NCBI RefSeq assembly: GCF_029338295.1
Contig: NZ_CP119793.1
Span: 62,001-126,000 of the forward strand
Source: Haladaptatus sp. QDMS2
GTDB lineage: Archaea > Halobacteriota > Halobacteria > Halobacteriales > Halococcaceae
Direction: 5' to 3'
DNA length: 64,000 nt
The notes beneath the pieces were generated by a model. The model did no database searches, was not told the origin of the DNA, and was given only the letters and a program-made list of their open reading frames with translations. Made by a program: the position numbers and the translations under genes. Position 1 is the first letter of the stretch. Each line of letters begins with the position of its first letter. Shown in pieces: positions 40,018-44,737 of the stretch.

Positions 40018-40555
40018 GTCTCCGGCGACAACACGGTGGGAATCGACCTTGGCATCAGCAACTCCCTCGCCATCGCCTACGACGACGGAGACGCCGAATT
40101 GTATCCGGGGAACGTGCTGAAACAGGACAAGCACTATTTCACCCGCGACGAGTACGACACCGAAGGAGAGAACGGCCCGTCATGTCGGGCGCAAAGCGCA
40201 CGACAGATGTTGTCTCGACGGAGAGACCACTTCCTGTACGCCCTCGTCAAGCACGTCGTAGAGCAGTGCATCAACCACGAGGTCGATCGCATCGCCACCA
40301 AGGACTTGAGTAAAATTCGTGGAACTGAGAATGGCGACTCACGGAACTGGGGCAAACGTGGAAACAAGAAACTCCACTGGTGGGAGATTGACCGCTTCTC
40401 GACGCTCTTTGACTACAAGGCCGAAGGGAACGGCATCCACGTTACCGTGTTTCCGAGCGAGATACGTCGAAGACGTGTTCGTGTTGTAGCCGAAAGCGTG
40501 ACGCAAAGATACTGAGTGATTTGTATGTCGGTTGGGGAGTCGCTCTCTCTCGGTC
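40018..40555 (+). mobile_element. TnpB (IS200/IS605) fragment with frameshift
   Basis: The frame VSGDNTVGIDLGISNSLAIAY carries the RuvC-I catalytic Asp, and RIATKDLSKIRGTENG the middle region. A one-base deletion near 40450 shifts the frame: SERDTSKTCSCCSRKRDAK, with the start of the zinc finger, reads in the next frame. The element is truncated at both ends; the leading helical domain and the final Asp are missing. It is inactive and ends about 75 bp from the bioB start. Confidence 0.82.
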
Positions 40556-40593: not shown

Positions 40594-40627
40594 AACTTTT
40601 TTACTCTCGTCAACCAACGTCCCACTC
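40594..40627 (+). promoter_or_regulatory. Leaderless promoter of the biotin operon
   Basis: BRE-like CCGAA and TATA-like CTTTTTTAC at about 40591-40603 lie 25-30 nt upstream of the GTG start of bioB, the spacing typical of leaderless haloarchaeal genes. The promoter sits just beyond the TnpB remnant. Confidence 0.5.
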
Positions 40628-41746
40628 GTGGTTTACGAGACCGAAAACACGACGATAGCCCACGCCGTCGAACAGGTACTGGCTGATGAACGATTAGATC
40701 GCCGTGACGGGCTGGCACTCATCGCACAGCCGGTCGAGGAACTCGCGGCCGCCGCCGACTTCGTCCGCGCGCACTTCGGTGACGACACGGTTGATGCCTG
40801 CTCGATCGTGAACGCGAAAGCGGGCAACTGTGCCGAAGACTGTGGCTTCTGCGCCCAATCCGTCCACTTCGACGCCGGCATCGAGACGTACGGGTTTCTC
40901 GACCCCGAAGAGATACTTGAAGCAGCCAAACGAGCAGAGCGCGACGGTGCCCAGCGCTTCGGCATCGTCGTTGCCGAGAAAGGCGTCTCCAAGGAACAAC
41001 GACCCGACGAGTGGCAGGAGGTGCTCCGGGCTATTCGCCTCGTTCGCGACGAGACCGACGTCGAGGTCGACGCCTCGCTCGGCATCCTCACGGAGACAGA
41101 AGCCCAAATCCTCGCCGACGAGGGGATTAACCACTACAATCACAACATCGAGACCTCTCCCCGGTTCTTCCCGGAAATTGTTGGGACCCACTCCTTCGAA
41201 GACCGGGTGGAGACCCTGGAGATCGCCAAAGCAGCCGGGATGGACCTGTGTGCCGGGGTCATCCTCGGTATGGGGGAGACGCCGACCGACCGCGTGGACG
41301 CCGCTATCGCCCTGCAAGAGATCGGGATCTCCTCGCTCCCAGTGAACGTCCTTAACCCAATCGAGGGGACGCCGCTGGGCGACCGACTCGGTGACGACGC
41401 GGCGATTTCTACCAACGAACTCATCAGCACCATCGCGGTCTATCGGTTGCTCCACCCCCACGCGCGGGTGCGACTCACGGGTGGCCGCGAGGTCAATCTC
41501 GAGACGGACGAACAACACCTGCCGTTCGAGGCGGGAGCCGACGGCATTCTGACCGGCGACTACCTCACCACCTCGGGGCAGTCTCCCGGCGACGACATTG
41601 AGGCGATCGAGCGGGCCGGAATGGAGCCGAACATGACCGTCCACGAGTTCGATACCGAGGCCGTCAAGGCACGGACGAAACGGGAACGCAGGACGGTTGA
41701 AACGGCAGCAGGATCGGCGAACAGCAACGCGGAACTGGAGAATTAA
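40628..41746 (+). CDS. bioB: Biotin synthase
   Basis: A 372-residue radical SAM enzyme that inserts sulfur into dethiobiotin. The radical SAM cysteines are C68, C72 and C75 (AKAGNCAEDCGFCAQS), with the conserved YNHNIETS and VILGMGET blocks following. Start GTG 40628 gives the usual N-terminus and matches the promoter spacing; upstream in-frame codons would run into the TnpB remnant. The C-terminus has a charged extension after residue 330. It is the first gene of bioB-bioU-bioF-bioD. Confidence 0.93.
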   Translation: MVYETENTTIAHAVEQVLADERLDRRDGLALIAQPVEELAAAADFVRAHFGDDTVDACSIVNAKAGNCAEDCGFCAQSVHFDAGIETYGFLDPEEILEAAKRAERDGAQRFGIVVAEKGVSKEQRPDEWQEVLRAIRLVRDETDVEVDASLGILTETEAQILADEGINHYNHNIETSPRFFPEIVGTHSFEDRVETLEIAKAAGMDLCAGVILGMGETPTDRVDAAIALQEIGISSLPVNVLNPIEGTPLGDRLGDDAAISTNELISTIAVYRLLHPHARVRLTGGREVNLETDEQHLPFEAGADGILTGDYLTTSGQSPGDDIEAIERAGMEPNMTVHEFDTEAVKARTKRERRTVETAAGSANSNAELEN

Positions 41747-41747
41747 C

Positions 41748-42818
41748 ATGCACGAAAGCACCTTCGCAGTACTCGGTACAGGTGGCATCGGTCGACGAAT
41801 GCTTGAGGTCTCGATGGAGAAGGAGGGGCTCACGCCCGTCGCAGCGTGTGACCGCCATGGAGTCGCCATCGACCACGACGGCCTCGACGTGGACGAGCTG
41901 CTCGCGGCGACGGAGGGGAACATCGCGAGCGATCCCGAGGGGCGCGACCTGTCTACAGACGGCGGGTCGGCGTCCGCCCGAGGGGGTGGCATCAAGCAGA
42001 CCGGGGCGGGCGCCGGTGTTGTCGCGTCTGCACAGGCGACCGCGACGGAGACGCCGATCGATGACATCATCGCAGAGAGCGACCGGATCGACGCGGTGCT
42101 CATCGCGCTCCCCAACTTCGAGCACGACTTCATTCCACGGGTGGCCGACCGCTTCGCGGACGCGGACTATTCCGGCGTACTCGTAGACGTGCTCAAACGC
42201 TCCCGCGTCATCGGAATGCTCGACGAGCGTGCGGATACCTTCCAAGAGTGTGGCATCACGTTCGTTTGTGGTGCCGGTGCGACGCCCGGCTTGCTCACGG
42301 GTGCAGCGGCCATCGCGGCCCAGTCGTTCGTCGAGGTTGAGGCGGTCGATATCTGGTGGGGTGTGGGACTCAAATCCGGCTACGAGGACAACCGCGGCAC
42401 CGTCCGCGAGGACATCGCTCATCTACCAGGGTACGATATCGAGGACGCCCGCAATATGAGCGACGCGGAGATTGCGGCGGTCATCGACGAGCACGACGGC
42501 ATCATCGAGTTCCGAGACATGGAGCACGCCGACGACGTCCTTCTGGAGCGCGCTGGCATCTGCGACGCCGCGGACGTAACGGTCGGCGGAATCCTCGATG
42601 TGACCGCCGACGAGAAGCCGACGACAACGACCGTGCGTGTCACGGGGCGGACCTTCGACGGAGAAACGGCGACCAACACTTTCCAGCTCGGCGACGACAC
42701 GAGCATGGAGGCCAACGTCAACGGACCGGCCCTGGGGTACATGAAAGCGGCGCTCCGCCGTCATCGCGCTGGCGAGTACGGGGTCTTCGGGCCCGCCGAG
42801 TTGATGCCGGGGTTCTAG
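41748..42818 (+). CDS. bioU: BioU-like NAD(P)H-dependent enzyme, (S)-8-amino-7-oxononanoate to diaminopelargonate step
   Basis: A 356-residue oxidoreductase with an N-terminal Rossmann fold (VLGTGGIGRRM). It sits between bioB and bioF in a cluster that has no bioA. BioU is known from cyanobacteria as an enzyme that replaces BioA and, in that form, donates the amino group of its own active-site lysine (a suicide reaction); haloarchaeal relatives are reported. K150, in VLVDVLKRSRV, is the best candidate for a catalytic lysine here; this is inference from position. Start ATG 41748 directly after the bioB stop. A more distant oxidoreductase role is possible but the context argues for BioU. Confidence 0.72.
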   Translation: MHESTFAVLGTGGIGRRMLEVSMEKEGLTPVAACDRHGVAIDHDGLDVDELLAATEGNIASDPEGRDLSTDGGSASARGGGIKQTGAGAGVVASAQATATETPIDDIIAESDRIDAVLIALPNFEHDFIPRVADRFADADYSGVLVDVLKRSRVIGMLDERADTFQECGITFVCGAGATPGLLTGAAAIAAQSFVEVEAVDIWWGVGLKSGYEDNRGTVREDIAHLPGYDIEDARNMSDAEIAAVIDEHDGIIEFRDMEHADDVLLERAGICDAADVTVGGILDVTADEKPTTTTVRVTGRTFDGETATNTFQLGDDTSMEANVNGPALGYMKAALRRHRAGEYGVFGPAELMPGF

Positions 42819-44069
42819 ATGCGTGACGAACTGAAGGTTGGTTCGGATGCCGACGCGGGCCGGAACCGGGAATACGGGTTCGACTTCGCCGCCCAGCTTG
42901 CCGCGCGGGAACAACAGGGGCTCAGGCGGACCCTCACTCCGACAGAACGGGTGGCCGCACGCAGCCGGATGGCTCCCGACCCGAAGGGAGGAGTCCCCGA
43001 GTTCGACAGCCGGGAGCAACTCGTGTTCGCCGCGAACGACTATCTCGGCCTCGCAGCCGACGAGCGCGTCCAGACGGCGGCAGCCGATGCGTCCCGCCAG
43101 ACCGGGACTGGTGCCGGTGCAAGTCGGCTCGTGACCGGTGACACACCACCCCATCGCGCCCTCGAACGCGATATCGCCGAGACGAAGGGGATGGCGCGGG
43201 CGCTTGTGTTCTCGTCGGGGTACGCGACGAACCTCGGGGTGCTCTCAGCACTGGCTCCGGACATTGTCTTTTCAGATGAGCTGAATCACGCAAGCATCAT
43301 CGACGGCTGTCGGCTCGCCGACGCGGAGACGCGAGTGTACGACCACTGCGACCCCGACGATCTCCGTGCGATGCTCGAGCGACGCGCTCAGGAGGCGACC
43401 GGGGACGAATCGTGGCTGGTCGTCACCGACTCCGTTTTTAGTATGGACGGTGACGTGGCTCCCCTTGAGGAGCTCTGTGCCGCCGCCGAAGAGTACGGCG
43501 CGTGGCTGATGGTCGACGAGGCGCACGCGACCGGCCTGTACGAGGCGGGTGGCGGTATCGTCCAGCGCGAGGGGCTTGCCGACCGCGTCCATGTGCAGAT
43601 GGGGACGCTTTCGAAGGCGCTTGCGAGCCAGGGCGGGTACGTCTCAGGCAGTGAGCTGTTAATCGAGTACCTGCTCAACGCCGCCCGCTCGTTCGTTTTC
43701 TCCACAGGCCTCACGCCCCCAGCTGCGGCGGCTGCCCGGAAATCGCTCCAGATCGCTCGCGAGAGCGACCGGCCGGCACGCCTCTGGACGAACGTCGAGC
43801 GACTGCGCAATGGACTCGAGGAACTCGGGTATGAAGTGTGGGGTGAAACCCAGATCCTGCCCGTTGTCGTCGGCGACCGGGAGACCACAATGACGCTCGC
43901 CGAGCGGCTCCGCGAGCGGAATGTCATCGCGCCAGGGATTCGTCCGCCGACGGTTCCCGAGGGGACCAGTCGAATCCGGGTGGCACCGATGGCGTCACAT
44001 ACGGACGAGGAAATTGATCATTGTTTGACGGCCTTCCGCGAGGCCGGCCGCGCTCTTGATCTGCTATGA
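42819..44069 (+). CDS. bioF: 8-Amino-7-oxononanoate synthase
   Basis: A 416-residue PLP enzyme that condenses pimeloyl-thioester with alanine. The PLP lysine is K266 (GTLSKALASQGG), the aspartate contact in VDEAHATGL is present, and FAANDYLGL near residue 70 is the family signature. ATG 42819 follows directly after the bioU stop (TAG 42816-42818). Length is normal for the family with an extra charged N-terminus. Confidence 0.93.
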   Translation: MRDELKVGSDADAGRNREYGFDFAAQLAAREQQGLRRTLTPTERVAARSRMAPDPKGGVPEFDSREQLVFAANDYLGLAADERVQTAAADASRQTGTGAGASRLVTGDTPPHRALERDIAETKGMARALVFSSGYATNLGVLSALAPDIVFSDELNHASIIDGCRLADAETRVYDHCDPDDLRAMLERRAQEATGDESWLVVTDSVFSMDGDVAPLEELCAAAEEYGAWLMVDEAHATGLYEAGGGIVQREGLADRVHVQMGTLSKALASQGGYVSGSELLIEYLLNAARSFVFSTGLTPPAAAAARKSLQIARESDRPARLWTNVERLRNGLEELGYEVWGETQILPVVVGDRETTMTLAERLRERNVIAPGIRPPTVPEGTSRIRVAPMASHTDEEIDHCLTAFREAGRALDLL

Positions 44070-44737
44070 CTGAGGACTTCGCAGTCGTTGGGACGGACAC
44101 GGGCGTTGGCAAAACCGTCGTCACCGCAGGATTGATTGGGAATCTACGGGAAGTCGGTGTCGCCGCTCGCGCCGTCAAACCCTGCCAGACCGGCTTCCCC
44201 CCGGACGACGACGCGGGGTTCGTCGCCGACGTCTGCGGGACGGCCGCTGCCGCAACCTGTCTCCGCCGGCTTGAGGAGCCGCTGGCTCCCGCAGTTGCGG
44301 CTGAAAAAGCAGGCAATACCCTCTCCTACGAGACGCTATTGGCGGACTGTGAACAGGCGTTGGCCGACGCGGCGTGTGGCGTCCTTGAGGGCATTGGTGG
44401 ACTCCGTGTGCCACTGGCCGAGGGACGAGAGGTACTCGATCTCGTCGCCGACCTTGACCTTCCCGCCGTGGTTGTCGCCCGGTCGGGATTGGGGACCTTG
44501 AATCACACGGCACTGACCGTCGACGCGCTTTGCGAGCGCGGGCTCCCCGTTCGCGGTGTCGTTCTCAACGAGTATGAGGGTGCCACCGTGGCCGAACGGA
44601 CGAATCCGGCCATGCTCGAACGGATGATCGATGTGCCGGTCGAGACGCTCCCCCCGCTCGACCTGACGGACCCGACGGCCATCATCAGTGGCACGGCGGA
44701 ACATCTCTCGGATTCGCTACTAACCTTGAATCAATGA
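44066..44737 (+). CDS. bioD: Dethiobiotin synthetase
   Basis: A 223-residue ATP-dependent carboxylase closing the ureido ring of biotin. P-loop GTDTGVGKT at residues 9-17, substrate-side KPCQTG near residue 38, and LEGIGGLRVPL near residue 109. Its start overlaps the bioF stop (ATGA), and it is the last of the operon. No bioC, bioH, bioW or bioY gene is seen nearby. Confidence 0.93.
   Translation: MTEDFAVVGTDTGVGKTVVTAGLIGNLREVGVAARAVKPCQTGFPPDDDAGFVADVCGTAAAATCLRRLEEPLAPAVAAEKAGNTLSYETLLADCEQALADAACGVLEGIGGLRVPLAEGREVLDLVADLDLPAVVVARSGLGTLNHTALTVDALCERGLPVRGVVLNEYEGATVAERTNPAMLERMIDVPVETLPPLDLTDPTAIISGTAEHLSDSLLTLNQ

Follow-up and report, generated by a model that had tools for sequence, protein, structure and literature searches.

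The biotin locus and its missing step

How does an archaeon make biotin when its biotin operon has no bioA? This question is raised by the window, a stretch of 64,000 nucleotides of contig NZ_CP119793.1 of Haladaptatus sp. QDMS2, where a bioB-bioU-bioF-bioD cluster occupies the + strand from nt 40628 to 44737 and no bioA was found within the cluster by profile search (Table 1). The initial annotation had described a tightly spaced row in which an oxidoreductase gene comes after bioB and ahead of bioF and bioD, and this arrangement is borne out by the ORF coordinates and the profiles: a gap of 1 bp separates bioB from bioU, the bioF start codon abuts the bioU stop (0 bp), and bioF and bioD overlap by 4 bp. 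The GTG start of bioB was set by analogy with the annotated gene (1119 bp) of Haladaptatus sp. YSMS36, whose 269-kb plasmid shows 99.4% identity with the window across 14 kb. Immediately 5' of the operon, a fragment of an IS605-type OrfB/TnpB transposase (PF01385, 44 bits) is present at nt 40036–40515.

Table 1. Features of the biotin locus, in window coordinates
Feature	Position	Strand	Remarks
BirA-type operator-like inverted repeat, GTCAACC-N14-GGTTTAC	40609..40636	+	spans the bioB start codon
bioB, biotin synthase	40628..41746	+	TIGR00433, 341.9 bits (cut-off 225); annotated bioB in L155
bioU	41748..42818	+	ATG to TAG, 356 aa; between bioB and bioF
bioF, 8-amino-7-oxononanoate synthase	42819..44069	+	TIGR00858, 418.4 bits, just below the cut-off of 426.45; annotated so in L155
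bioD, dethiobiotin synthase	44066..44737	+	TIGR00347, 127.8 bits (cut-off 83.3)

A survey of 31 Halobacteria published in 2018 counted bioF in 18, bioD in 14 and bioB in 19 of them, with bioW and bioA both at 0, and left the step open (PMC6138646). Natronomonas pharaonis is described as prototrophic for biotin and as carrying three or more biotin genes (PMC3403918). In Haloferax mediterranei, HFX_5076 (bioD), HFX_5077 (bioF) and HFX_5079 (bioB) respond together, HFX_5078 being left without a name (PMC10779274). We infer that HFX_5078 is BioU. No paper naming BioU in haloarchaea was found by a literature search that had subscription papers outside its reach.

The protein between bioB and bioF has the sequence and predicted fold of BioU

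The top profile for the protein encoded between bioB and bioF was that of BioU (NF047886, E 3.1e-99, 332 bits) and, in the PDB, it matched Slr0355, the BioU of Synechocystis sp. PCC 6803 (6ir4), with an E of 9.1e-85; only BioU gave matches of comparable strength in either search. The profile score is below the naming cut-off of 600 bits set by NCBI for NF047886, a point that was counted against the BioU reading, and the same cut-off is reached by 0 of 292 haloarchaeal genomes. An AlphaFold2 model of the protein (mean pLDDT 83, pTM 0.84) could be superposed on the BioU entries 6ir4, 6itd, 6k36, 6k37 and 6k38 with Z of 44.6–45.2 and 1.4–1.5 Å across 323–324 residues, the identity with Slr0355 in the structure superposition being 45% over 324 residues. 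The next structural family, carboxyspermidine dehydrogenase, followed at Z 21. The early suggestion that the gene is BioU-like thus holds at the level of profile, PDB match and fold. No PLP domain was detected in the protein by Pfam; the PLP-dependent DAPA aminotransferase BioA would serve the same pathway step as BioU, with unrelated fold and chemistry.

Residues 10–15 form the Rossmann motif GTGGIG, a putative NAD(P)-binding motif whose glycines are kept in 106/106 haloarchaeal sequences, a set that leaves out three frame-broken BioU genes (L137–L139) and the L044 remnant. Taken together with the active-site residues considered below, the window BioU resembles Slr0355 in its full-length fold, its catalytic Lys124 and His233, the GxGGxG motif, its pathway position and the lack of bioA. 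The two differ in genomic setting, since haloarchaeal BioU, unlike Slr0355, lies within a bioB-bioU-bioF-bioD cluster, and in the linker, which is both longer and variable in haloarchaeal BioU (28–104 aa; 57 aa and disordered in the model in the window protein) and measures 11–43 aa in the cyanobacterial sequences (best 80 of 461 relatives). The insert at residues 60–89 of the window BioU was modelled with low confidence. A linker motif, K[QR][TSA]G, that appeared conserved by eye was present in just 28 of the 106 sequences and was dropped.

The lysine sacrificed by Synechocystis BioU is conserved

K150 had been put forward as the possible catalytic lysine, to be aligned with Synechocystis BioU. 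Both alignment and superposition place it on Lys124 of Slr0355, the lysine that BioU sacrifices, and the K124A entries 6itd and 6k37 carry Ala in exactly this column (VLVDVLKRS in the window protein, VLVDALKRT in wild-type Slr0355, VLVDALART in the K124A chain). The second mutagenised active-site residue, His233, corresponds to H260, a column occupied by Ala in the H233A chain 6k38, and in the native BioU of Synechocystis salina the K150 and H260 columns are positions 124 and 233. The two residues are invariant in 106/106 intact haloarchaeal and 80/80 cyanobacterial sequences (the latter being the best 80 of 461 relatives), and the same holds in both sets for R220, E221, D222, H225, E259, D262 and K290. 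Ile precedes the catalytic Lys in 18 of these best 80 cyanobacterial sequences. An alignment offering no counterpart of the catalytic lysine, which the initial annotation had named as evidence that would speak against a BioU, thus did not materialise.

Following the scheme described for Synechocystis BioU, the epsilon-amino group of K150 would condense with the 8-amino-7-oxononanoate coming from BioF, and reduction of the imine by NAD(P)H would give a covalent enzyme-diaminononanoate conjugate; this conjugate would be carbamated by CO2, and an NAD(P)+-dependent oxidation would free diaminononanoate carbamate, the lysine nitrogen ending in the product (PMC12915131). BioD and then BioB would complete biotin, at the cost of one BioU molecule per biotin. 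We hold with high confidence that the gene at nt 41748–42818 encodes a BioU replacing BioA in this haloarchaeon, presumably with a mechanism of the Synechocystis type. What speaks for this reading is the homology, the fold, the two mutagenised active-site residues, the operon, the lack of a recognisable bioA, the co-occurrence with bioB and the biotin-type operator.

The same step might instead be performed catalytically, by a dehydrogenase of the BioU type that takes the amino group from ammonia or from free lysine, with K150 merely binding or activating the substrate. The fold is indeed common to the NAD(P)-dependent lysine dehydrogenase 3abi, the amine dehydrogenases 6g1m and diaminopimelate dehydrogenase. 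Carboxyspermidine, lysine and homospermidine/amine dehydrogenases, which share with it the general NAD(P) Rossmann fold (Z about 18–21) and imine chemistry, turn over catalytically with free amines; their identity with the window BioU is 10–19%, at about 3.3–4.6 Å. In addition, 37 alignment columns are fixed differently between haloarchaea and cyanobacteria (best 80 of 461 relatives), some of them near active-site motifs (A176/C, W204/F, N325/C), and this was also counted against the BioU reading. However, the lysine is invariant in 186/186 sequences (80 of them the best of 461 relatives) in a protein that is lysine-poor and acidic (6 lysines and 64 D+E in the 356 aa of the window BioU), and the other shared residues, His233 among them, are invariant too. 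A free-donor enzyme would hardly need this lysine in every lineage, so its invariance favours the suicide route, and the external-donor variant of BioU appears unlikely. Quite unlikely as well is that haloarchaeal BioU, in which the linker is long and disordered and fixed changes surround the active-site motifs, acts in multiple turnovers by means of an external amine donor or a repair of the spent lysine, in which case the archaeal class would use a new kind of catalytic BioU.

BioU accompanies bioB and bioD across haloarchaea

With BioU scored as present when a BioU-like match had an E of 1e-16 or lower, BioU was found in 108 of the 292 genomes of the class and bioB in 131. All of the 108 carry bioB (Fisher p 1e-57, with genomes treated as independent of kinship), and bioD was over the cut-off in 9/9 BioU genomes put through the profile vs 0/23 genomes having bioB without BioU. 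The bioD profile was run on nine of the 108, bioD being seen elsewhere by similarity in the neighbourhood. With bioB in 108/108 and bioD in 9/9 tested, the idea that BioU genomes are free riders was rejected. BioY occurs in 277 of the 292 genomes, and transport does not separate the BioU from the non-BioU groups.

The 23 genomes with bioB and without BioU look like cases of pathway decay, since BioU remnants are left in two of them (L044 and L055) and bioD reaches the cut-off in none. The remnant of L055 is an N-terminal BioU trace fused ahead of bioF and that of L044 a short BioU stretch after bioB, both in genomes without bioD over the cut-off.

The order bioB-bioU-bioF-bioD was observed in 88 of the 108 BioU loci. 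Among the other 20, only bioD was missing from view in 11 (nine with short flanks, two at contig ends), bioB-bioU stood alone in six (two at contig ends), bioB was not nearby in two, and in one the apparent order was an artefact caused by a long open frame. Three loci of one genus (L121, L130, L132) have bioB-bioU without adjoining bioF and bioD, with bioD elsewhere in the genome; in L137, L138 and L139 BioU is interrupted by frame breaks, through decay or sequencing error, with bioB, bioF and bioD still present; and a single genome (G230) has two bioB-bioU pairs (L107, L128).

Beyond the class, the genome_contigs scan returned 461 relatives, the best 80 of which are all cyanobacterial by title, and a search of the phylum gave BioU relatives in 14 of 294, all within the own order, the 294 not being split by class. 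In a 63-row tree a single branch (100/100) divides the haloarchaea from the cyanobacteria, with no direction of transfer indicated. The deepest haloarchaeal BioU branch is formed by L010 and L017, from small genomes of 1.9 and 2.3 Mb, which have short linkers like those of cyanobacteria.

No aminotransferase of the genome fits BioA

The initial annotation had proposed an operon lacking bioA and had named a bioA elsewhere in the genome as the observation that would speak against a BioU. No gene of the whole genome exceeds the bioA cut-off of 405 bits, the best of eight bioA-profile matches reaching 287, and the cut-off is exceeded in 0 of 292 haloarchaeal genomes. The eight class-III aminotransferases of the genome were considered as BioA and rejected, as none passes the bioA cut-off and all fit other families better (PRK06062-like, ArgD/LysJ-like, diaminobutyrate/GABA-type and HemL). 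If one of these enzymes nevertheless acted as BioA, leaving the BioU relative with another role, a candidate would be the unassigned class-III aminotransferase L001, to which the score of 287 bits belongs and whose moonlighting as BioA, possible in principle, was counted against the BioU reading. However, L001 scores higher with PRK06062 (462.5 bits) and with a number of further aminotransferase models than with bioA, and it is BioU whose gene is part of the bio operon and whose occurrence follows that of bioB and bioD from genome to genome, so that we consider this explanation highly improbable. The window BioU very probably performs the pathway step for which the genome has no recognisable gene.

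Upstream of this step, BioW was not found in the genome and no BioC was over the cut-off; this gap in the early pathway, which leaves the origin of the pimeloyl thioester unexplained, was likewise counted against the BioU reading.

A biotin-type operator-like repeat at bioB

The inverted repeat at the bioB start codon is one that we take to resemble the bacterial BirA operator. The pattern GTNAACC-N13..17-GGTTNAC occurs at two places only in the 3.88-Mb genome, at bioB and at bioY, vs one for the backward control pattern, and the second perfect repeat (G000:C1:2843945-2843972, L237) precedes bioY by about 48 bp. The left, non-coding half of the repeat was conserved with at most one mismatch in 92/92 scored BioU loci vs 0.6% of control offsets (101/17,050), and likewise in 22/22 scored loci without BioU, indicating that it goes with bioB and not with BioU; the scoring left out 16 loci lacking a V-Y-E start (BioU present in 11 and absent from five) and four near contig ends. 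The biotin ligase of the genome has an HTH_11 domain above the gathering score, and the repeats at bioB and bioY suggest a two-site biotin regulon under this HTH-bearing BirA.

In six plasmid records the product of bioU is named 'transcriptional regulator' in five, including that of YSMS36, and 'hypothetical protein' in one; that the gene is truly a regulator of the bio operon has a negligible probability, given a protein with no DNA-binding domain by Pfam and a fold equal to that of BioU, in a genome that already has a BirA with an HTH domain.

Implications for biotin synthesis in haloarchaea

Because bioU is misnamed in public records, pathway reconstructions would rate these organisms as incomplete. 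In one sense the window BioU is an ordinary orthologue, yet it supplies the published missing step of an archaeal class: BioU fills the bioA gap of the 2018 survey of Halobacteria (PMC6138646). This implies an unusual chemistry in which these archaea would use up one protein molecule for each molecule of biotin made, and haloarchaea such as Haloferax mediterranei offer an archaeal setting for the in vivo study of suicide chemistry.
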